Positions 51,817 through 64,000 of a DNA stretch of 64,000 nucleotides are shown piece by piece. The notes below the pieces were generated by a model. It was not told the DNA's origin and searched no databases. It was given only the letters and a program-made list of their open reading frames with translations. The first letter of the stretch is position 1. Each line of letters begins with the position of its first letter. The stretch covers positions 186,001 to 250,000 of the forward strand of contig NZ_JAGSYC010000025.1 in NCBI RefSeq assembly GCF_025685545.1. Reading direction: 5' to 3'. This DNA comes from Granulicella paludicola. GTDB lineage: Bacteria; Acidobacteriota; Terriglobia; Terriglobales; Acidobacteriaceae. Both the position numbers and the translations under genes were made by a program.

Positions 51817-52725
51817 ATGGAATTACGACACCTTCGCTATTTTCGCGCAGTGGCGGATTATGGGAGCGTAACTGCGGCTGCCAAGCGTTTACATGTCTCG
51901 CAGTCCGCGATTAGCGAGCAGATTCACGATCTCGAAGCGGAGCTTGGAGGGCGCCTTCTGGACCGTACGGCGCGCAAGATACGGCTGACAGCGCAGGGAC
52001 AGGTGTTTCTGGAAGAGGCTCGCAAGACGCTCGAAGCCGCGGAACGCGCGATCGACCTGACTAGGCAGTCTTTGCAGGGCGAAGTTGGGACGCTCTCTAT
52101 CGGTTTCTTCCTGTGGGGCGCGGGCGGCTTCTTTCCGCGGATCATTCGCGAGTTCCGGCGGCGGCGACCTGGAATACGGCTCTCTCTGATCGATATGCAG
52201 GCGCATGAGCAACTGGTCGCGCTTGAAGATGGGCGGATCGATGTAGGTCTTACGCGGCCGCTGGAGCCGCCGTTCGATCGTATGCTGCAGTCAGAGTTGC
52301 TATATCGCGATCCGGTTGTCGTTGCGGTAAGGCCGGATCATCGGTTTGCGAAGCGCACGGTGCGCGTGTCGGAGCTGGCGGAGGAACGCGTCGTGGTTTG
52401 CGACCAGAAGGCTTCGCCGATCCTGTTCGACAACTTCATTCAACTGTGCGCGGAAGAAGGATTTGCGCCGGAGATCGTCAATTCGTCTCCGACCTGGTCG
52501 GGAGTTTTGACGCTGGTGGAAGCTGGCGAAGGCGTCGCGATTGTGCCTTCTGGTGTGAGGCATTTGAGAACGCGAGGGTTATCGTTCAGCTCTCTCGATC
52601 CGGATCGGCTGTCGCTTGGGCTTTCGGTTGTTTGGAACCGGAACAATCAGGGCGTTGCGTTGGAAGATTTTCTGACGCTGCTGCGGGAGAACAAGGGCCG
52701 GATTCAGAAGAGCGACGGGAACTGA
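51817..52725 (+). CDS. LysR-family transcriptional regulator
   Basis: A 302-residue protein. The N-terminal wHTH is MELRHLRYFRAVADYGSVTAAAKRLHVSQSAISEQIHDLEAELGGRLLDRTARKIRLTAQG (residues 1-62), the classic LTTR motif. The effector domain (about 90-295) follows, with ALEDGRIDVGLTRP and EAGEGVAIVPSGVRHLR. It probably binds an aromatic or drug-like co-inducer and controls the divergent RND operon and itself through the palindrome at 51791. Its stop codon abuts dispersed element copy B, so the element provides its 3' flank. Confidence 0.95.
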   Translation: MELRHLRYFRAVADYGSVTAAAKRLHVSQSAISEQIHDLEAELGGRLLDRTARKIRLTAQGQVFLEEARKTLEAAERAIDLTRQSLQGEVGTLSIGFFLWGAGGFFPRIIREFRRRRPGIRLSLIDMQAHEQLVALEDGRIDVGLTRPLEPPFDRMLQSELLYRDPVVVAVRPDHRFAKRTVRVSELAEERVVVCDQKASPILFDNFIQLCAEEGFAPEIVNSSPTWSGVLTLVEAGEGVAIVPSGVRHLRTRGLSFSSLDPDRLSLGLSVVWNRNNQGVALEDFLTLLRENKGRIQKSDGN

Positions 52726-53123: not shown

Positions 53124-56100
53124 TTAGAAGAGGAACTGCAGGGACATCTGCACCTGGCGGGGGCTGCCAATGGTGTGGGTGACCTTGCCTAGACCGCTCG
53201 GGCAGCTGTAGAAGCTGCCTGCGATTGAGCCGTTTCCGTTCGCGTCACAGGTGCCCGGCAGGATGGGGGTGCCTGTCTGCGGGAAGCCGTTGTATCCCGC
53301 GTTCTGGGAGACCTCGTTTCCGGGAACGTCGAAGCTGGCGGTGTTGGTGAGGTTGTAAACGTCGAAGGTGTACTTGAGAGAGTAGCGGTCGGTGAACTTC
53401 GTCGCTTTGACGAGAGAGGCATCGGCGCGCTTCTGGAAAGCCTGGCGGAAGATATTGCGCTGGCCGCTGGTGAAGCCGGTCTCATAGGGATCGGTACCGG
53501 GGATTGCGCCGTTGAAGCTGCCGGAAGGGCCAGCATTGAGCAGCGGAATGCCAAAGCAGGAAGCCTTGAGAGCGGTGTCTCCGAAGGCTCCAGAGAGGTG
53601 GGTGAGAGCCGTCTTGGCGGTGCAACCGTTGGCGAGAGGAACGATGGGGTTGGTGATGCCATCGGAGACGCCGTAGTAGATGCTGCCGACGGCACCAGAG
53701 AAGTCGATGATCGAGTAAGGCTGACCGCTCTGGAGAACGGTCAGGCCTACGAGCGACCAGCCGTTGACGAAGTAACTGACGGCATTCTTCTCGTGGATGA
53801 GATCGGGAGCGCGGAAGATGTAGTTGAAGTTGAGGACGTGGGTACGGTCGAAGTCGGAGGAGCCGTAGCCGCTGCGAAGGTTGAGGGCGTTGTTGCCGTT
53901 GTAGAAAAGGCCGAGCCCGGACTGCTCGTCTGTGGCGTGAGAGTAGGTGTAGGAGGCGGCGATCTGAATGCCATGGCTCATCCGCTTTTCGATATGAGCC
54001 TGGAGAGCGTTGTAAGCGTCGACGCCTGCAGCCTTGTAGTCGATGGACTCGGCGGCGTAGCCGATGTAGGGAACTCGGAGATCGACGTTACCGCCTTCGG
54101 CTGTGGCGAGGTAGCTGGTGCCGTCCGGTAGGTTCTGCCCACCGACGTTGTAGCCATAGCTATACTTTTGCTGGTAGTTGCCACCGGCGAGAACGGGATT
54201 CCCTGTGGTGGGGTTGGTGATCATCGGCTGGTTGAAAGGAACCGGGATCACTTGATGACGACCCAGGTTGCCGACGTAACCGAGGTCGATGGCGATGTCG
54301 TTGCGTGGCTGCCACTGGATATCGAGCGTGTAGTTCATGGTGTACGGCAGCTTGTTGGCGCGGTCGTAGACGCCGAGCGAGATCGGCACGCCGTTGTTGA
54401 TGGTGGCGCCAGCGTTGTAGTTGACGATGCTGGCGGCGTTGGGCAGGAAGTTCTTCAGATCCGATGCCTTCGGATTGTTGGGCGCAGCATATTGCAACGT
54501 CTGGCCGTAGGGGTTGCCGAGGTCACCGGTTGCATCGGTCGGGGGTCCTGTTGGAGGACCGAAGCCGCCGTTTCCGCCGCAGGTAGGGATGTAGTACTCG
54601 TAGAGCGACTGCGAGGCAACGGGGCAGCTGGAGGCGTTGACGAAGGGAAGTTGCTGGTTCACGCCAAAGGGACCGCCGGTCACGGTACCTAGTGCGTAGC
54701 CGGGCGAGAAGTAGCTGAAGAGTTCGCCGCGATCGTAGTACATGCCAAAGCCGGAACGAACGACGACCTTGTTCTTGAACATCTCTGGCTGCCAGGCGGC
54801 ACCAATGCGAGGGCCGATGCCCCACTGGCGACCTGTTAACGTGGTGTTGCTGACGCCGGTGCTGCCATTGGCATTGTTGCCAGCGATGATGAAGCCGGGG
54901 TTGACGATCTGATCGGCGGTTGCGTTGTAGCTGTAGAGGGAAGGGTCGAAGTTGAAGAGGCGACCGTATTTTTCGGTCAGGCCTCCATCCCAGTCGTAAC
55001 GAATGCCAGCGGTGAGGGAGATGCTGGGCGTGACCTGGAACTTGTCCTGCACGTAGGTCCCGAGTTGATTGGCGCGGTAGTAGCGGCTGGCGTTGCCCTG
55101 CAGAAACGACGTGACGTAGAAGCCGGTGGAGGAACTACCGGGGGTGACAAAGCCTTGAGCAAACTGGCTGAAGTCGTCGGTGGCTACGGTGCCTGTACCA
55201 GCGCGCTTATCGATGGTGTTCAGCTGCGTGAGGCTGTAGATGGCGCCGAAGCTGACGGTGTGCTTGCCGAGGGTCCAGATGGCGTTGCCGGAAGGCGAGA
55301 TACGGTTCTGGAAGACGCCAGTGTTGGAGGCCTGACCTTCAGCGTTGGGGCCGATATTCAGGACTGCGGACGAAGTGCCGGAGGGCTGGTTGTTACCCAG
55401 AACGTTATAGATGGAGACACCGGGGAAGTAGGTAGAGCCGAAGGTGTTGATGCAGGGGCTGGAGCAGCCGGGAACGTTCTCCGGAGTGAATGGCTGCTCA
55501 TTATCGGCGTAGTTCTTCTCGCGTACGAAGCCGATAGTTTCGGTGGTGCTGAGGTTGGACTTGACGAGGTAGGTATTGGTGATGGAGAAGACCTGGGCAC
55601 CGGAGTCGAGGTGTTCGGTGAAGCCGGGGACGCTGGAATAGGCGTAAGGAGCGAGCGTGGGATCGTGCTGATAGAAGTACTTCAGCGCGAGGGTGTCCTT
55701 GCTGGTGATGTTGTAGTCGAGATCGGCGACGATGGAGTCGTTCTTGAAGCGTCCGGTGCCGGGGAGGAACGTGTTATCGAGATGAGCAGCTGTGGGGGCG
55801 ACGCCGTTGAGACCATCGTTCGGTATGAGGTATTTGCCGGGCTCACCGGGCAGCGCCGGAATGTTGAAGAGAGCTTGTGCTGTGGAGTTGATGTCTGTTC
55901 CGGCGAGCGTGGTGCCGAAGTTGTTGTTGGTAAGCGCGGCTAGACCGGCGGCGGAGCGGTCGTTGGTGAGACCGACGGGAACGTCGAGTAGCGAGTCGCC
56001 GATGGCCTGATCCGAAACATGCAGGTGCTGGTAGGCGATGAAGGCGAAGAGCTTGTCTTTGATGATGGGACCGCCGAAGGTACCGCCGAGGAGGTAGCGG

Positions 56101-57116
56101 TGGAGCTGCGGATTCTTATCATTGGCCGGAATGGAGCCGTCCTGCTTGAAGAAGAAGGGAGCTGAATTGATCCAGTTGGTGCCGCGGTGGGCGTAGAGGG
56201 TGCCGTGGTACTGGTTGGTGCCGGAGGCGGTGCTGAGGTCGATGTGCGCGCCGGAGGTTGATCCCTGTGAGGCATCGTACATGGAGGCGTTTACTTTCAC
56301 TTCAGCGAGCGTCTCGGGCGCTGGGGTGGGCAGGGCGTTACCGATGGAGAGATAGACCGAGGCGGCGGAGACGATGATGCCGCCAGCGCTGCCGCCGGAG
56401 GAGCCGGTGCTGTTGATGACGCGGCCCGAGGCGACGGCGGAGGTGGACTTGCCGTTGAAGAGGTTGGAGCTGTCGACGCCGTTGAGGGAGAAGCTGTTGG
56501 AGGTGTCGCGCTGACCATTGGCCCAGATGGGCTGGTTGCCGAGACCGTCGTTGGCACCGGTGCCTGAGGGGAGCTCGGCGTTGACGCCGGGGGAGAGGAT
56601 GGCGACGCCGGTGAAGCTGCCGGTGGGCAGAGGGATGGACTGGATTTGTTCCTTGTCGAGGACGTAGCCGTTGGTGGTGTCGACGGCATTGAGCAGGGGA
56701 TTGAAGTCGACGGTGACGGAGTCGGTGGCGGCGCCGATGGCGAGCTGGACGGGCAGGGTGTCGGTGCGGTCGGCCTGGACGAGGATGCCGGGGAACTTGA
56801 CGGCGGAGAAGCCCTGCATGGTGACGGTGACGGTGTACTTGCCGATGGGGAGGTCGTTGAGGGAGTAGGTGCCCTGGCCGTTGCTGGTGGCGGAGCGGGA
56901 GAGCTTGGTGTCGTCGGAGATGACGGTGACGTTCGCGCCGGGGATGGCGGAGCCCTGGGGGTCGACGACGGTGCCGGTGATGCCACCGAGGGTTTGCTGG
57001 GCCAGGGCAGAGCTGGCAGCCAGCAGGGATGCAAGGCAGAGAGAGGCAAAGAGCCGGGACGCCGATTTGAAGGCGGAGAGATTGAAGGCGGGGGATTTGA
57101 ACTTGTTATGCACCAC
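53124..57116 (-). CDS. TonB-dependent receptor with N-terminal carboxypeptidase-regulatory domain (Oar-like)
   Basis: A 1330-residue outer-membrane protein. The start is a GTG (at 57116) with AGGAGG 8 nt upstream, which excludes the 152-codon longer frame. A signal peptide (LFASLCLASLLAASSALAQ) is followed by a beta-sandwich (GGITGTVVDPQGSAIPGANVTV...GTYSLNDLPIGKYTVTV, residues 35-118), then a plug (SIPLPTGSFTGVAILSPGV...) and a long barrel rich in aromatic strands ending QVQMSLQFLF, with a C-terminal Phe. This architecture is typical of acidobacterial Oar/SusC-like receptors of 1000-1300 residues. The ligand is unknown; carbohydrates or peptides are the usual suggestion. It is divergent from the giant repeat protein. 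Confidence 0.92.
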   Translation of the reverse strand: MVHNKFKSPAFNLSAFKSASRLFASLCLASLLAASSALAQQTLGGITGTVVDPQGSAIPGANVTVISDDTKLSRSATSNGQGTYSLNDLPIGKYTVTVTMQGFSAVKFPGILVQADRTDTLPVQLAIGAATDSVTVDFNPLLNAVDTTNGYVLDKEQIQSIPLPTGSFTGVAILSPGVNAELPSGTGANDGLGNQPIWANGQRDTSNSFSLNGVDSSNLFNGKSTSAVASGRVINSTGSSGGSAGGIIVSAASVYLSIGNALPTPAPETLAEVKVNASMYDASQGSTSGAHIDLSTASGTNQYHGTLYAHRGTNWINSAPFFFKQDGSIPANDKNPQLHRYLLGGTFGGPIIKDKLFAFIAYQHLHVSDQAIGDSLLDVPVGLTNDRSAAGLAALTNNNFGTTLAGTDINSTAQALFNIPALPGEPGKYLIPNDGLNGVAPTAAHLDNTFLPGTGRFKNDSIVADLDYNITSKDTLALKYFYQHDPTLAPYAYSSVPGFTEHLDSGAQVFSITNTYLVKSNLSTTETIGFVREKNYADNEQPFTPENVPGCSSPCINTFGSTYFPGVSIYNVLGNNQPSGTSSAVLNIGPNAEGQASNTGVFQNRISPSGNAIWTLGKHTVSFGAIYSLTQLNTIDKRAGTGTVATDDFSQFAQGFVTPGSSSTGFYVTSFLQGNASRYYRANQLGTYVQDKFQVTPSISLTAGIRYDWDGGLTEKYGRLFNFDPSLYSYNATADQIVNPGFIIAGNNANGSTGVSNTTLTGRQWGIGPRIGAAWQPEMFKNKVVVRSGFGMYYDRGELFSYFSPGYALGTVTGGPFGVNQQLPFVNASSCPVASQSLYEYYIPTCGGNGGFGPPTGPPTDATGDLGNPYGQTLQYAAPNNPKASDLKNFLPNAASIVNYNAGATINNGVPISLGVYDRANKLPYTMNYTLDIQWQPRNDIAIDLGYVGNLGRHQVIPVPFNQPMITNPTTGNPVLAGGNYQQKYSYGYNVGGQNLPDGTSYLATAEGGNVDLRVPYIGYAAESIDYKAAGVDAYNALQAHIEKRMSHGIQIAASYTYSHATDEQSGLGLFYNGNNALNLRSGYGSSDFDRTHVLNFNYIFRAPDLIHEKNAVSYFVNGWSLVGLTVLQSGQPYSIIDFSGAVGSIYYGVSDGITNPIVPLANGCTAKTALTHLSGAFGDTALKASCFGIPLLNAGPSGSFNGAIPGTDPYETGFTSGQRNIFRQAFQKRADASLVKATKFTDRYSLKYTFDVYNLTNTASFDVPGNEVSQNAGYNGFPQTGTPILPGTCDANGNGSIAGSFYSCPSGLGKVTHTIGSPRQVQMSLQFLF

Positions 57117-57706
57117 TCGTGTGTCCTCCTGAAGATGACTGCGTTTTGGCTGGGTGGCGGGAGTACGGATGCTCCTGCTGCGGCCGGGTAGAAAGTATGT
57201 CGTGTAAGGGTGGAACGGGTTGAATACGGTGTGAGAGACGGCTGCCGAGAGCTCCGGATAGGTAAGGCAATAGGTTCGTATACAGAGCTTTGAAGAGATC
57301 GCAGGTGTGTTTGCGAGGCGCAGCGCTGCAGACGGAACTTGCCGAACGGCAGGGGTGGCTGCGGGACTGGCTATGAGGCTAGAGACGTCGTGGTCGTTTG
57401 GGAAAGCATAACGCAATCGACGGCGGTCTGAAAGAGTTTGTGCGTGGGGGACGGTATTGGCTGTGCGGGTAGGTCGTTTGAGCGGGATGGATGAGGAGTT
57501 TGATCCACTGAAAAGGATCGGTTTTGGAACGGCCGCGGCGGGTCGCGAGATTATTTTGGCTATCGGGTTCAATTTGGGCTAAACCCATTGAGAGACGGGG
57601 GTTCGGGCTATAGACGACAGAGCGGGCGCGGGTAAGGGGCAGGGCGGGGGAGTGTCCTAATGTGTGACAGAGCTTTGAAACGTGTGGGTTAAGGCATTGT
57701 TTTCTC

Positions 57707-57936: not shown

Positions 57937-60900
57937 ATGCGTTACAAGCACTTTTTTGCGCCCGTTGCCAGCCCTTCCATTCGCCCCGTATCCGCAGCCC
58001 TGAAGGGACATGCAAGGAAGCTCTTGTCGACGACGATCGCACTGACGGCTATGGCCCTGTCGGGGTCTGCAGCGAAGGCGCAGACTCTGTCGGTGAATGG
58101 TGTCACCGATTTGTACAGTTCGGGGTATTCGAACTTTGCGGCGACGCAGGTGGGTCAGAGCGTCACTCAGAATGTGCCGCTGCTGGTGAGCGGAGGCACG
58201 GTGACAATCACCAGCTTCTCGATTCCGGCGCCGGCGACTCTCGCCAGCGGCGCGGCCGCGCGTACGCAGCAGTTTAAGACCGGAGCCTTGACGGGCTGCA
58301 CCGTAGGAACGGCAGCAGCAGCGAACGCGGTCTGCAATATCTCAGTGACGTTTACGCCGGCCTATGTCGGCTATCAGACATCGCCGCTGACGGTGGTCAC
58401 GAACCGCGGCACGTTCCAGTTTGGCCTGAATGGCGTGGGTGTGGGCCCGCAGGCGGTGCTGATGCCTGGCATTCTGAGTTCGATCGCAGGCGACGGCACA
58501 GCTTCGGCGCTGGCCGGATCGACCGCGGGTACGGGCACGACCTACACCGGCGACGGCGGGCAGGCGACGGCGGCCCAGGTGAACTCGCACGGCTTCTCCT
58601 TCGATGCCCTTGGCAACCTGTATGAGGCTGAGTTTTCGGCGCTTGCGGTGCGCAAGATTACGGCTGCCGGTGTGATCTCCACGGTGGCTGGCGCTTCGGG
58701 CCGCGGCTCGTGCGCGACGACGACCGGCGCCTGCGGTGACGGTGCTGCCGCTACAGCAGCAACTTTCAGCAAGAACCTGCCGGACGTAGCCTTCGATTCA
58801 GCGGGCAATATGTACATCGCCGATCTTGGCAATAACCGTGTACGCCGTGTGGACGCGGTCAGCGGCAATATCACGACCATCGCGGGAACCGGCACACAGA
58901 GCGAGACCGGCGACGGCAAGGCTGCTACCGCAGCCACGCTGAATACGCCTGAGGCTGTGGTCGTCGATTCGCAGGACAACCTCTACATTCTGGACTCGAA
59001 CGCTTCGGTTCCGACCGGCGGCACGACGACGCCGGGAGCGACGGTGCGTTTCATCGCGCACGACACAGGCTTCATCTCCACGATCGCAGGCGTAACAGCG
59101 ACTCCGTGCGCGGCGGGTACAGGACAGACGTGCGGCGATGGTGGTCCTGCCACGGCGGCCAACATCGGCGTAGCGGCTTCGTTCTATGTCGACCAGGTCA
59201 CCGGCAATTACTGGATCGTGGACAAGACGGCGAACCGCATTCGCTATGTTTCGGGCTCGACGGTGGGCAGTGTTGCGAAGGGAACGATCACGACGGTGGC
59301 CGGTACGGGAGCCCAGGGATATACGGGCGACGGCGGCGCAGCGACGGCAGCGACCTTCAATCAGCCGCATGGCATCTGGGTTGATCCTGCCGGCGATCTC
59401 TATATCTCCGATCGCGGCAATAATGTCGTTCGGTTCGTGTCCTCGGCTTCCGGCGTTGTAACGACCATGGCGGGTGGTGGGGCTACCTGCACGGCGAGTG
59501 GCAACGGCAGCTGCGGCGACGGTACGCCTGCGAACAGCGCAACCGCAAACCTGACTCCGGACGACGTGCGTCTGGACAGCTTCGGCAATCTATATATTGC
59601 GGACCAGACGAACTTCGCGATCCGCAAGATCACCCAAAATCCGATTACGCTGACCTTCCCGACGGTGCCGGTAGGCAATACCGCTGGTCCTCTCACCGCG
59701 TCGCTGGTGGATATTGGCAGCAGCACGCTGACGTACACGACCCCGGCCAGCGGCAGCAACGCGGCGGTGACCTCAGCCGACCCGGATGGCAGCACGACTG
59801 CGGCGTTTGCCCAGGCGAATACGACGACCTGCGGTCCGATCTACTCCACCTCGACCTCCGGTAACACGCTGGGTGCTGGCGCGACGTGCAACTTTGTGGT
59901 GACGTTCACGCCCAAGACGACTGCGGGCAACTACACCGGTACGCTGATCGAGACGGACGACTCGTTCAATGCAGGCGCCACCGGCAATACGGTGTACCCC
60001 ACGGCAGCGACCCAACTGGTGAGCCTGGTAGGAGCGGCGACGCAGGCAACCGCTACGGTGGGCCTGGCGACAAACCCGAATCCCTCGACTTACAACCAGA
60101 GCGTGGCGCTCACCTCCACGGTGACGGGAGCTGGTACGTTGCCGACCGGCACGGTGACCTTCACCTATACGCCTACGGGTTCGACGACCGCGGTGACGAT
60201 CGGGACAGCGACGATCAGCACGACCTCGGGCTCGTCGGTCGCAACCCTGAATACGTCGAACCTGCCCGTGGGCACGGACACGATCCTTGCTACCTATAAC
60301 GGTGACGGCACGTATGTCGCCGGCACGAAGTCGGGCACGGTGGCGCAGGTGGTGAATCTGGCGCCGGTTTCTGCCGATACGCTGACGGTTTCACCGAGCC
60401 CGGCCACAACCGGACAGACGGTGACGATTTCGTTTACGGTCCCGACCGCGACTGGGAATACAGCTCCCTCGGCAGCGACCTCGGTGACGTTTACGTATAC
60501 GCCTCCCGGCTCGACGACGCCGATCACGATCACTGCGGCGGTGAAGGGAACCACGGCGAACGGCGTGACAACCTACACCACGACGACGGCGCTGCTGCCG
60601 ATCGGCACGGACACGATCATCGCGAACTTTACGGGTGACGCGAACTACGCAACGGGTTCTCTGAGCACACCGGAGACGGTGAACGCCATTGGTCCGGTCG
60701 GGCAGGCTGTGACGGTAGCTACGAACCCAACTACGGTTGGTTCGGCTGACACGATCACATACAGCATTCCTGTTGTGATTGGTTCGCAGGTGCCGACTGG
60801 CTCTGTGTCCTTCGTGAGCGGATCGACCACGCTTGGTTCGGCGACCTTCCCCGCAACTCCGACGGCGGTAACCTGCCCGGTTGGTACGGGTAACTGCTAC

Positions 60901-63900
60901 ACCGTTTCGATCTCCACGACGGCGCTGCCGCTGACGGTCTCCCCGGCGACGAGCACCCCGGTAACTGGCACGTATACGGCGGGCGGGACTTCGGGTTATT
61001 CGTCGGGTACGGCGAACACGACGGTTGTGGTGAACCAGGTCTCCAGCGCCGCGGACGCGGTAACGGCGGCGAACAAGACGACTACGGTCGGCACGGCCGA
61101 TCCTCTTACCTACAGCATCCCGGTGGTGACGGGAGTCCCCGCTCCTGCAGGCACGGTGACCTTTGCCAGCGGTTCGACGAATCTCGGTTCGGCGACATGG
61201 CCGGCGACGCCGACGACGGGCACCTGCCCGAGCGGCAGCGGCACCTGCTACCTGCTGGCTGACGCGCCTTCGCCGACGAACATTCCGCTGACGACTGCCC
61301 CGGCGACGAGCACGCCGATTACGGCGACCTACACAGCGACAGCGGCTTCGGGTTACGCCTCGGGCGCACCGACGACGACGGTGGTGGTGAACCCGGCCGG
61401 CGGCTCGGGCGACACGCTGACGGTGGCGACGAACCCGACAACGTTTGGAGCTTCGGACACACTTACCTTCAGCATCCCTGTGACCTCGGGCGCTCCGGCT
61501 CCCGCGGGTTCTGTGGTGTTCACGGTCGGTTCGACCTCGCTGGGTACGGCAACGTGGCCGGCGAGCCCGACGGCTTCGGGTGGGTATTACACGCTGTCGC
61601 TGACGACGTCTGCGCTCCCGGTCGGATCTCCGACGACGGTGGTAGGCACGTACACGGCGACGGCAGCTTCGGGCTACGGCTCGGCGGCTCCGCAGGCGAC
61701 GGTGACAGTGAACTCTGTCCCTCTGTCGAATGATGGCATCTCGGCTACGCCGAGCGCGACGACCTCGGGTAACACGGTGACGATCGTGTTCTCGGTGCCG
61801 ACGGTGAACGGTACGGCTCCGGCGACGACGTCTTCGGTGACGTTCACGTATGTTCCGAGCGGTTCGACGACGCCGGTTACGATTGCATCCGCAGTCAAGG
61901 GTGTGACGTCGAACGGCACAACGACGTATACGACGACGAGTTCGACACTGCCTGTGGGCACTGATACGGTGACGGGCACCTTTACCGGTGACACGAACTA
62001 TGCTGGCGGCGCGCTTTCGACGCCGGTGGCCATCTCTTCGAACTCGACCACGGACACGGTGACGGCGACCCCGGCAACGAACACGGTGGGTTCGACGGAG
62101 ACGATCACGTTCAGCATTCCGGTGGTAACCGGAGCGAGTGTGCCGACGGGTTCGGTGGCGTTTACCAGCGGCAGCACGAGCCTCGGCAACGCGACCTGGA
62201 ATAACCCCACGCCTGTGGCTTGCGGAACGGGCACCTGCTACACGATTTCGATTACGACGACGGCGTTGCCGTTGACGGTGGCTCCGAGCACGAGCACACC
62301 GGTGCTGGCGACGTATTCCTCCGGTACGGGTTCGGGCTATTCTTCGGCGACCGCGACGACGACCGTGGTGATCAACCAGGTTGCAGGCGGCGGCGATACG
62401 GTGGTTGCTGCCAGCGGGACGATCTCCGTGGGCAGCCCGGATGCTTTGACCTTCTATGTGCCTGTAGTTTCTGGCGCTCCTGTACCTTCGGGAACCGTGG
62501 CGTTCACCAGCGGATCGACGAACCTAGGTTCGGCGACCTGGCCAGCGAGCCCGGTGACGGGTAGCTGCGCTGCTGGCACCTGCTACATTCTGGCCGACTC
62601 GCCCACGCCGACGAACATTCCTCTGACGGTAGCTCCGGCGACGAGCTCGCCGGTGACGGCGACGTACACGGCGGGCTCGGGTTCGGGCTACGCTTCGACG
62701 ACGGCGACGACCTCGGTGGTTGTGACTCCGGCCTCTGGCACGGGCGACACGCTGACGGCTGCGCCGACGACGATTACCTATGGCGCTTCCGACACGCTGA
62801 CGTTCAGCATCCCCGTGGTCTCAGGAGCTCCGGCGCCGACCGGTACGGTGACGTACAGCGTAGGTACCACCACCCTGGGCACGGCTACATGGCCTGCGAA
62901 TCCGACGGCAACCGGCGGCGTGTATAGCCTGCCGTTTGCGACGACGAACCTGCCAGTTGGCAGTCCGACGACGGTTTCGGCGGCGTTTACTCCGTCCTCT
63001 GGCTCGGGTTACGGCACAGGAACGGCGACGACGACGGTGACAGTGAACCCTGTCCCTCTGTCGAATGATGGCATCTCGGCTACGCCGAGCGCGACGACCT
63101 CGGGCAACACGGTGACGATCGTGTTCTCGGTGCCGACGGTGAACGGTACGGCTCCGGCGACGACGTCCTCGGTGACGTTCACGTATGTTCCGAGCGGTTC
63201 GACAACGCCGGTCACGATTACATCCGCTGTCAAGGGTGTGACGGCGAACGGCACAACGACGTATACGACGACGAGCTCGACACTGCCTGTGGGCACTGAT
63301 ACGGTGACGGGAACGTTCACCGGCGACACGAACTATGCTGGCGGCGCGCTCTCGACGCCGGTGGCTATCTCTTCGAATTCCACGACGGACACGGTGACGG
63401 CGACCCCGGCGACGAACACGGTGGGATCGACGGAGACGATCACGTTCAGCATTCCGGTGGTAACCGGAGCGAGCGTGCCGACGGGTTCGGTGGCGTTTAC
63501 CAGCGGCAGCACGAGCCTTGGCAACGCGACCTGGGCTCTTCCGACGCCGGTAGCTTGCGGAACGGGCACCTGCTACACGATTTCGATTACGACGACGGCG
63601 TTGCCGTTGACGGTGGCTCCGAGCACGAGCACACCGGTGCTGGCGACGTATTCCTCCGGTACGGGTTCGGGCTATTCTTCGGCGACCGCGACGACGACCG
63701 TGGTGATCAACCAGGTTGCAGGCACGAGCGATGCGGTGACAGCGGCGAACAGCACGACAACGGTCGGCAGTGCCGATCCGCTGACGTTCAGCATTCCGGT
63801 GGTGAGCGGCGCTCCAGCCCCGACGGGTTCGGTCTCCTTCACCAGTGGGTCAACGAACCTTGGTTCGGCGACGTGGCCCGCGACGCCCACGACGGGAACC

Positions 63901-64000
63901 TGCCCCAACGGCACGGGTACCTGCTATCTGCTGGCGGATAACCCATCCCCGACGAACATTCCTCTGACGGTGGCACCGGCGACGAGCACCCCGGTGACGG
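57937..64000 (+). CDS. Giant secreted NHL-propeller and Ig-like repeat protein, incomplete at the window end
   Basis: An open frame of at least 2021 codons from the ATG at 57937 (GGAGAG upstream), with no stop before the window ends. The signal peptide ends AAKAQ at about residue 48. A choice-of-anchor-D/ASH-like domain (about 60-175) and six NHL-type units (about 178-568, each with (S/T)TxAG and GDGxxATAA) follow. A second ASH-like domain covers about 566-700. From about residue 705 there are twelve Ig-like (Big_3_5-type) domains of 105-118 residues. Several carry a paired-cysteine loop such as CPSGSGTCY, suggesting disulfides. It is probably cell-surface or secreted and adhesive. The C-terminus is not in the window. 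Confidence 0.85.
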   Translation, partial: MRYKHFFAPVASPSIRPVSAALKGHARKLLSTTIALTAMALSGSAAKAQTLSVNGVTDLYSSGYSNFAATQVGQSVTQNVPLLVSGGTVTITSFSIPAPATLASGAAARTQQFKTGALTGCTVGTAAAANAVCNISVTFTPAYVGYQTSPLTVVTNRGTFQFGLNGVGVGPQAVLMPGILSSIAGDGTASALAGSTAGTGTTYTGDGGQATAAQVNSHGFSFDALGNLYEAEFSALAVRKITAAGVISTVAGASGRGSCATTTGACGDGAAATAATFSKNLPDVAFDSAGNMYIADLGNNRVRRVDAVSGNITTIAGTGTQSETGDGKAATAATLNTPEAVVVDSQDNLYILDSNASVPTGGTTTPGATVRFIAHDTGFISTIAGVTATPCAAGTGQTCGDGGPATAANIGVAASFYVDQVTGNYWIVDKTANRIRYVSGSTVGSVAKGTITTVAGTGAQGYTGDGGAATAATFNQPHGIWVDPAGDLYISDRGNNVVRFVSSASGVVTTMAGGGATCTASGNGSCGDGTPANSATANLTPDDVRLDSFGNLYIADQTNFAIRKITQNPITLTFPTVPVGNTAGPLTASLVDIGSSTLTYTTPASGSNAAVTSADPDGSTTAAFAQANTTTCGPIYSTSTSGNTLGAGATCNFVVTFTPKTTAGNYTGTLIETDDSFNAGATGNTVYPTAATQLVSLVGAATQATATVGLATNPNPSTYNQSVALTSTVTGAGTLPTGTVTFTYTPTGSTTAVTIGTATISTTSGSSVATLNTSNLPVGTDTILATYNGDGTYVAGTKSGTVAQVVNLAPVSADTLTVSPSPATTGQTVTISFTVPTATGNTAPSAATSVTFTYTPPGSTTPITITAAVKGTTANGVTTYTTTTALLPIGTDTIIANFTGDANYATGSLSTPETVNAIGPVGQAVTVATNPTTVGSADTITYSIPVVIGSQVPTGSVSFVSGSTTLGSATFPATPTAVTCPVGTGNCYTVSISTTALPLTVSPATSTPVTGTYTAGGTSGYSSGTANTTVVVNQVSSAADAVTAANKTTTVGTADPLTYSIPVVTGVPAPAGTVTFASGSTNLGSATWPATPTTGTCPSGSGTCYLLADAPSPTNIPLTTAPATSTPITATYTATAASGYASGAPTTTVVVNPAGGSGDTLTVATNPTTFGASDTLTFSIPVTSGAPAPAGSVVFTVGSTSLGTATWPASPTASGGYYTLSLTTSALPVGSPTTVVGTYTATAASGYGSAAPQATVTVNSVPLSNDGISATPSATTSGNTVTIVFSVPTVNGTAPATTSSVTFTYVPSGSTTPVTIASAVKGVTSNGTTTYTTTSSTLPVGTDTVTGTFTGDTNYAGGALSTPVAISSNSTTDTVTATPATNTVGSTETITFSIPVVTGASVPTGSVAFTSGSTSLGNATWNNPTPVACGTGTCYTISITTTALPLTVAPSTSTPVLATYSSGTGSGYSSATATTTVVINQVAGGGDTVVAASGTISVGSPDALTFYVPVVSGAPVPSGTVAFTSGSTNLGSATWPASPVTGSCAAGTCYILADSPTPTNIPLTVAPATSSPVTATYTAGSGSGYASTTATTSVVVTPASGTGDTLTAAPTTITYGASDTLTFSIPVVSGAPAPTGTVTYSVGTTTLGTATWPANPTATGGVYSLPFATTNLPVGSPTTVSAAFTPSSGSGYGTGTATTTVTVNPVPLSNDGISATPSATTSGNTVTIVFSVPTVNGTAPATTSSVTFTYVPSGSTTPVTITSAVKGVTANGTTTYTTTSSTLPVGTDTVTGTFTGDTNYAGGALSTPVAISSNSTTDTVTATPATNTVGSTETITFSIPVVTGASVPTGSVAFTSGSTSLGNATWALPTPVACGTGTCYTISITTTALPLTVAPSTSTPVLATYSSGTGSGYSSATATTTVVINQVAGTSDAVTAANSTTTVGSADPLTFSIPVVSGAPAPTGSVSFTSGSTNLGSATWPATPTTGTCPNGTGTCYLLADNPSPTNIPLTVAPATSTPVT
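60358..64000 (+). repeat. Four-domain super-repeat in the giant protein
   Basis: Ig-like domains follow a B-C-D-E order three times: 60358-61716 (B, C, D, E), 61717-63051 (F, G, H, I) and 63052-64000 (J, K and partial L, then the window ends). F, G, H resemble B, C, D and recur as J, K, L. The period is 1335 bp (445 codons) between the second and third copies. F-G versus J-K differ by about 30 bases in about 660, mostly at third positions. Confidence 0.88.
62218..62388 (+). repeat. Exact 171-bp direct repeat, first copy (second at 63553-63723)
   Basis: I read identical bases at 62218-62388 and 63553-63723, from GCTTGCGGAACGGGC to AGGTTGCAGGC, exactly 1335 bp apart. It codes for the second half of an Ig-like domain (VACGTGTCYTIS... 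to ...VVINQVAG). The upstream half of the same domain pair has scattered silent differences, so identity is local. Confidence 0.9.

Follow-up and report, generated by a model that had tools for sequence, protein, structure and literature searches.

A giant gene encoding 27 Ig-like domains

We analysed a 64,000-nucleotide stretch of the Granulicella paludicola genome (NCBI RefSeq assembly GCF_025685545.1, contig NZ_JAGSYC010000025.1, positions 186,001 to 250,000 of the forward strand; hereafter "the window", numbered from its first letter), at the right-hand end of which a giant gene starts at position 57937 on the forward strand. A sequence-only reading of the window had held that this frame continues past the window end, and it does: no stop stands right after 64000, and a further 4,997 bases on the same contig carry the frame to its stop at contig position 254997 (window-equivalent 68997), for a total of 3686 codons. 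The protein comprises, in order, a signal-peptide-like start, an NHL propeller, 27 immunoglobulin (Ig)-like domains, as counted with a profile built from the giant's own domains, and a C-terminal "lipo-invert" module. Twelve of the Ig-like domains lie in the window, as that reading had counted, with the last of them (D3) cut by the window end. The features of the gene and of the gene that follows it are listed below.

57937..58083, + strand: N-terminal signal peptide (residues 1-49, cut at ...AKA/Q), by inspection of the sequence by eye only
58084..60036, + strand: head, an NHL beta-propeller between two weak ASH/HYDIN-like beta domains (Pfam)
60052..60372, + strand: Ig-like domain A (Big_3_5 match at residues 711-806)
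60373..61728, + strand: block 1 (B1 60373-60699, C1 60700-61050, D1 61051-61407, E1 61408-61728)
61729..63063, + strand: block 2 (B2 61729-62049, C2 62050-62391, D2 62392-62742, E2 62743-63063)
63064..64000 in the window, + strand: block 3, with D3 cut by the window end (B3 63064-63384, C3 63385-63726, D3 63727-64083, E3 64084-64413; the parts past the window are L006:12002-12414)
61715..62389, + strand: homogenised tract, copy 1 (B2 and C2 with linker), 95.6% identical to copy 2
63050..63724, + strand: homogenised tract, copy 2 (B3 and C3 with linker), supported also by the run test on polymorphic sites
62218..62388, + strand: 171-bp exact repeat, copy 1 (end of C2)
63553..63723, + strand: 171-bp exact repeat, copy 2 (end of C3)
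L006:16999-17613 (window-equivalent 68998-69612): outer-membrane barrel gene, 204 residues, beginning at the giant's stop

Profile matches in the head fall between approximately residues 201 and 585 (Pfam TEN_NHL, 86.4 bits; NHL, 52.3 bits), with ASH and HYDIN matches that are both under their cut-offs; none of the Pfam matches to the head, which are to NHL/propeller and weak ASH/HYDIN-type models only, is to a known adhesive domain. On profile evidence the Ig-like domains are relatives of Big_3_5 (PF16640), as both pieces of the gene, scanned whole, pass strongly; when eight domains were scanned singly, B1 and E2 exceeded the cut-off and C1, D1, E1, B2, C2 and D2 scored below it. The four domains E1-B2-C2-D2, modelled with AlphaFold2, form almost exclusively beta structure (mean predicted local distance difference test score (pLDDT) 87.6), and a sequence search of the PDB with the four-domain unit returned no matches at E <= 0.1. 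The giant protein is predicted to be exported and is probably surface-exposed.

The stalk is built from super-repeats of four and two domains

The Ig-like domains run A, B1 C1 D1 E1, B2 C2 D2 E2, B3 C3 D3 E3, B4, four F-G pairs and then five single domains. From B1 to B4, domains four positions apart had a mean identity of 71.6%, compared with 46.2% in shuffled order and with 0 of 5000 shuffles as high, which bears out the B-C-D-E order read from the window; in the F-G array the corresponding lag-2 identity was 78.1% vs 60.3% (p 0.0044). Neighbouring single domains are 28-65% identical, and the copies that resemble each other are separated by a step of four or two domains; two adjacent 445-residue E-B-C-D units are 84.0% identical. 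The block length first given, 1335 bp (445 codons), is exact for the step from B2 to B3, whereas B1 to B2 measures 1356 bp and B3 to B4 1350 bp. The suggestion that more blocks may follow beyond the window did not hold, as no fourth BCDE block is present there: the first array ends with the remainder of block 3 and B4, and after it come the four F-G pairs, the five further Ig-like domains and the C-terminal module. The F-G super-repeat (four copies of ~585 bp each, L006:12721-15057) carries an exact repeat of its own, 176 bp long, at window-equivalent 64924 and 65509.

The closeness of blocks 2 and 3 lies in a two-domain tract

Whole-block comparisons placed blocks 2 and 3 closest to each other (81.7% nucleotide identity, vs 67.5 and 68.2% with block 1), as had been claimed, but this closeness resides in B and C only. 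Across B and C, blocks 2 and 3 are 95.2% identical vs 64.9 and 65.3% for the pairs with block 1, and across D and E the three blocks are equidistant (1/2, 70.1%; 1/3, 70.9%; 2/3, 68.5%), such that the equal divergence named beforehand as contrary to recent copying was found in the D-E half and not in the B-C half. Synonymous divergence (dS, Nei-Gojobori) was 0.18 for B2/B3 and 0.10 for C2/C3, whereas the remaining pairs of B, C, D and E domains that were compared all gave values between 0.81 and 2.13, including D2/D3 (0.93), E2/E3 (2.13), and C1/C2 and B1/B2 (near 1.1); nonsynonymous divergence (dN) for B2/B3 was only 0.01.

The two tract copies differ at 30 sites in 675 bp, 23 of them third codon positions, and the tract edges are sharp, with ungapped flanks (E1/E2 and early D2/D3) 68% identical and both ends within ~14 bp of domain boundaries as drawn. 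In a run test (GENECONV-style permutation of polymorphic sites, 21 pairs tested), 0 of 5000 permutations reached the observed value for blocks 2/3, and likewise 0 of 5000 for F1G1/F2G2, whose tract ignores domain edges and contains the 176-bp exact repeat; less marked runs, with uncorrected p of 0.002 to 0.03, occurred in FG3/FG4, block 1/2, block 3/ortholog (see below) and FG2/FG4. The 171-bp exact repeat reported from the window in blocks 2 and 3 is real and exceeds expectation for an exact run inside the tract (p 0.004; third positions alone, 0.0195), so that a second, younger copying event within the tract is possible. D3 also looks mosaic and was probably converted in part, its first part being nearer D1 and its last part nearer D2; the permutation test gave p 0.0006 for this triple, one of 11, and half-domain trees are decisive only for the second half.

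Taken by divergence, then, the recent event is a homogenisation of the two-domain B-C tract, not a four-domain duplication, and we take the four-domain duplications to be old because the dS of D and E pairs (0.81-2.13) spans the range of orthologs in two species (0.84-1.71; see below). We infer from this pattern a history of old multi-unit duplications with gene conversion laid over them. The proposal of recent duplication or conversion of whole four-domain units thus keeps its two ingredients, multi-domain duplication and later conversion, as separate layers, and loses the recent whole-unit event.

Trees of the individual domain types grouped B2+B3 (bootstrap 99), C2+C3 (100) and D2+D3 (92), and set E1+E2 apart from E3 and the ortholog's E (98). 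Because E1 groups with E2, we prefer E-B-C-D over B-C-D-E as the probable register of the younger duplication unit, a borderline preference.

An ortholog in a second species differs by whole units

The head has matches at E <= 1e-20 in 18 of 28 genus genomes (this genome counted), and outside this genome only one of these, G025, matches it over most of its length, at 61% identity. In a sample of 398 genomes from the larger family, the head matched at E <= 1e-50 in four, two of which are this genome (G000) and G025, and a C1-D1-E1 query at E <= 1e-30 recovered these two only. Two distant head relatives, in G314 and G373, were rejected as orthologs, having 2 and 0 stalk-profile matches, which leaves G025 as the only true ortholog for rooting trees among the 28 genus and 398 sampled family genomes. 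The G025 gene is syntenic with the giant, its surroundings sharing a LysR regulator (82% identical), an OMP_b-brl_4 protein (76%), the downstream barrel (70%) and a pyridoxal phosphate (PLP) enzyme (87%). Two of these neighbours lie in the window, to the left of the giant.

51817-52725, + strand: LysR regulator, 82% identical beside the ortholog
53124..57572, - strand: divergent neighbour, an OMP_b-brl_4 / CarboxypepD_reg outer-membrane protein, 76% identical in amino acids beside the ortholog

Both are kept beside the ortholog at these identities, and the giant's head at only 61%.

The ortholog has 15 Ig-like domains in the order A-B-C-D-E-B4-F-G-F-G-h23..h27, and the difference between 27 and 15 domains corresponds exactly to two BCDE units (3 vs 1) plus two FG units (4 vs 2). 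Ortholog dS for the single-copy domains (0.84-1.71) overlaps between-block dS, so the duplications would be approximately as old as the species split. In an outgroup-type tree the ortholog's domains fell beside different blocks (xC by C1, xD by D1 and xE by E3), with low support (in nucleotides/amino acids, 54/42 for the split setting off C1 with xC, 64/45 for xD+D1 and 76/31 for xE+E3), and the B tree leans to gain in this genome (77; alternative p 0.18 in the approximately unbiased (AU) test). The comparison rests on one genome per species, assembled in 26 contigs here and about 210 in G025, with the giant gene inside a 931-kb contig.

The C-terminal module recurs with a small outer-membrane barrel

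The C-terminus of the giant matches NCBIfam NF058595 ("lipo-invert putative C-terminal anchoring domain") at 60.6 bits, with a cut-off of 37. This model is above its cut-off in 28 of 28 genus genomes and in none of 14 control genomes (five of which have weaker matches), and at E <= 0.001 it finds 21 matches in this 5-Mb genome and up to 34 in one genus member, a large family of proteins, probably exported, that share this tail. Alignment of 13 tails revealed a G-C pair as the sole invariant feature (13/13), and the stretch preceding this cysteine may be lipobox-like. In its AlphaFold2 model the tail forms strands (within residues 2-70), then two helices (87-108 and 113-129) and then further strands (144-167), with pLDDT of 84-95 in the strand blocks. 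Foldseek searches with this model gave three matches at E <= 0.001 (query template modelling (TM) score ~0.45 over ~165 alignment columns including gaps), a match to the 106-residue lipoprotein 4lba (target TM 0.67 over 171 columns, E 0.013) and, lower in rank, many antibody Ig domains. The model suggests that the last Ig-like domain is split by a two-helix membrane hairpin and that its last two strands follow the conserved G-C cysteine.

The 204-residue barrel encoded next is, by sequence, a divergent relative of OMP_b-brl (PF13505): it scores 22.7 bits, under the cut-off of 28.7, and PF13505 matches 17 of 27 aligned members of the barrel family at E <= 0.01. Its relatives number 55 matches in 23 of the 28 genus genomes, and inspection of all 55 places found a lipo-invert open reading frame (ORF) immediately upstream in 43 and downstream in one, as counted with a tail profile from the 13 tails, four of which come from paired genes in this set. 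The earliest start that the barrel gene could use is -4 to +84 bp from the stop of the preceding gene in all 43 pairs, with a median of 12 bp. The other 12 barrels comprise eight in ORFs of 434-564 residues (for three of these the upstream sequence falls outside the stretch examined), two short frames (105 and 109 residues) and two of ordinary size (219 and 280 residues). When NCBI's own model was applied to five genomes, a lipo-invert match (eight above the NF058595 cut-off, three below) directly preceded 11 of the 14 barrel matches there that were strong (E < 1e-20). NHL content was considered as a rule for the pairing and set aside, being mixed and not exclusive. Because most barrels follow a lipo-invert gene and few lipo-invert genes have a barrel, the pair is best described as a recurrent subset, which suggests that some of these proteins may have the barrel as a partner for their anchoring or export.

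A model of duplication, conversion and display, and its alternatives

Bringing these results together, we consider it likely that the gene encodes an exported giant with a patchwork Ig-like stalk and a lipo-invert anchor, shaped by duplication and then conversion, and served by a barrel partner. Old tandem duplications of a four-domain unit (in a register that is probably E-B-C-D) and of the F-G unit, by recombination between repeats, would have set the domain number, and short stretches would later have been overwritten by gene conversion, between B2C2 and B3C3, between the F1/G1 junction and F2/G2, and probably in part of D3. Unequal recombination among like units would then produce length steps of four or two domains. 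At the protein level, the propeller would be carried outward on an Ig-like stalk held by the C-terminal anchor, in which a two-helix membrane hairpin, ending in a lipobox-like stretch ahead of the conserved G-C, apparently interrupts the last Ig-like domain, and the small outer-membrane barrel next door is a likely partner in anchoring or surface display. With ~4 nm per Ig domain, a stalk of 27 domains would reach some 100 nm and one of 15 some 60 nm, and the unit number that differs between the two species probably sets the distance of the propeller from the cell. The architecture, the repeat pattern, the tract, the difference from the ortholog and the pairing of genes are established here; export, the role of the stalk, conversion as the mechanism, the split anchor domain and the partnership with the barrel are inferences.

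Several observations weigh against this model. Single C and D domains score below the Big_3_5 cut-off; the grouping of D depends on the second half of that domain alone; and the E-B-C-D register is borderline, as the alternative E2+E3 grouping has p 0.0502 in the AU test and 0.04 in the Shimodaira-Hasegawa (SH) test. The rooted trees have weak support and point in part to duplications older than the species split, followed by loss in G025. As for the tail, the helix blocks of its model reach a pLDDT of only 49-69, the model comes without an error matrix, and its fold matches are weak, and the barrel adjoins just 11 of 100 lipo-invert matches in the five genomes, or 13 with two weaker barrel matches included.

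Among alternatives for the stalk, a recent tandem duplication of the entire BCDE unit would account for the overall closeness of blocks 2 and 3 and for a 1335-bp diagonal that runs from E1 into D2, but we regard it as very improbable given that D2/D3 and E2/E3 are far more diverged at synonymous sites than B2/B3 and C2/C3, and that D and E are equidistant across all three blocks. Less improbable, though still distinctly unlikely, is that the B-C pair was inserted as two domains, or came in through double unequal crossing-over, instead of by conversion of existing B and C domains; the tract ends close to domain boundaries are in its favour, while the intact B-C-D-E order, in which D3 and E3 are old and keep their positions, the F-G tract that runs off domain edges and the change of partner within D3 all speak against it. 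Strong sequence constraint in place of copying, to which the very low dN of B2/B3 could point, has a negligible chance and is rejected on synonymous divergence, since synonymous sites are alike too in B2/B3 and C2/C3 while C1/C2 and B1/B2 have dS near 1.1. An assembly artefact, either a wrong repeat number or a spurious B-C identity here or in G025, is conceivable with two multi-contig assemblies, yet the many third-position differences between the tract copies and the position of the gene within a 931-kb contig make it highly unlikely; copies ~70% identical seldom collapse in assembly, and a collapse in the G025 assembly keeps a small residual chance.

The direction of change between species is close to evenly balanced. 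That G025 descends from a longer form and lost two BCDE and two FG units, with no gain here, is nearly as plausible as not: the placements of xC, xD and xE are the outcome expected of one D-to-E recombination deleting eight domains, set against the low support of those splits and a B tree that leans to gain. For the barrel, the alternative is that it is an unrelated neighbour and that the giant is merely secreted or held by its helices. The scarcity of barrels beside lipo-invert matches favours this, as does the single lipo-invert neighbour among 26 weaker barrel matches in the five genomes; the tight and one-sided spacing of 43 of the 55 places, with one of 55 on the other side, and the recurrence of the pair at several loci, including this genome's paralog of the giant, argue for a partnership, and we rate the unrelated neighbour as somewhat unlikely. 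Returning to the model of duplication followed by conversion on an anchored stalk, one may extend it to a two-gene display system, in which the hairpin-split Ig domain would be processed, its lipid-anchored strand pair would clamp the stalk non-covalently, a dedicated barrel, translated immediately after the giant, would carry or hold this clamp in the outer membrane, and recombination and conversion among the super-repeats could alter the length of the stalk freely. In its full form we think this extension rather improbable.

Other giant proteins

In a comparison of 12 large ORFs, exact internal repeats of 150 bp or longer were confined to this gene, and one other of the 12 has an exact repeat of at least 40 bp. 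The lag test was possible in the five of these 12 that have at least six Ig domains and showed a clear super-repeat in this gene and, with a two-domain period, in its paralog (identity of 74% at lag 2 vs 47% at lag 1), a weak signal at lags 1 and 2 in G025, and no clear period in G002 and L217; super-repeats as a general trait of giants were not established by this comparison. The paralog (3193 residues, L039:2943-12524, - strand) lies ~0.65 Mb off on the same contig and has 23 Ig domains and its own barrel neighbour, with pieces of an NHL propeller in separate short open frames upstream of its start. A third giant frame, L217 (4041 residues), has an NHL region and a lipo-invert-like tail of 33.4 bits, below the cut-off, and ends ~390 bp before the contig end. 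This genome has 89 Big_3_5 matches in total.

Relation to known systems

A text search of 5.39 million papers found no mention of the lipo-invert anchor by name or of NF058595, the one-line description of that model says nothing of a pairing with a small barrel gene, and a search on acidobacterial outer-membrane beta-barrel, Ig-like and lipobox genes gave a single unrelated paper, on copper; wider searches showed nothing on such proteins among the papers listed. Within these searches we did not find the anchor-barrel pair in print, and it offers a testable partner for an anchor that we know only as a database model. The repeat growth itself is of a known kind. Domain repeats have been described as growing several domains at once in the middle of an array, with a unit of seven in nebulin and with bacterial Ig-like repeats mentioned (Bjorklund 2006, PMC1553488); the giant differs from those cases in being prokaryotic and in combining periods of four and two in one gene with later conversion, and the available part of that text does not contain the term "gene conversion". 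The giant adhesin of Mobiluncus mulieris and M. curtisii, which differs between species by a 21-domain insertion attributed to recombination (PMC10619420), shares the Ig-like stalk with our giant, but its Ig-like domains are covalently cross-linked and no super-repeat appears in the part of its description available. Fibrillar adhesins (PMC8286594) are similarly built from an N-terminal functional domain, an Ig-like stalk and a C-terminal anchor, whereas the giant has no known adhesive domain, and the part of that work available names anchors other than lipo-invert. Because no adhesive domain was recognised, we describe the giant as an adhesin-like stalk protein and do not file it as an adhesin.

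The giant, which by profile has an N-terminal NHL propeller, an Ig-like array and a C-terminal anchor, can also be set beside Periscope Proteins, monomeric rods with a distal functional domain that are described in the available sections of two reports as single-chain surface proteins with a variable number of tandem folded repeats, for which intragenic recombination is proposed and whose repeat number is thought to set projection length (PMC8201768, PMC9704523). The search for those proteins, as given there, took tandem repeats of >50 residues with at least 80% identity, and adjacent domains in them are highly identical and their number varies between close strains, whereas neighbouring domains in the giant are far less alike, the level of 84.0% being reached between adjacent E-B-C-D units, and its variation in number is seen between two species only. 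Since similar copies stand four or two domains apart, the gene may retain long recombination tracts without placing misfolding-prone twins side by side. The giant also separates two processes that are easily lumped, as old four-domain duplication would set the length of the stalk and later conversion would keep pairs of domains alike.

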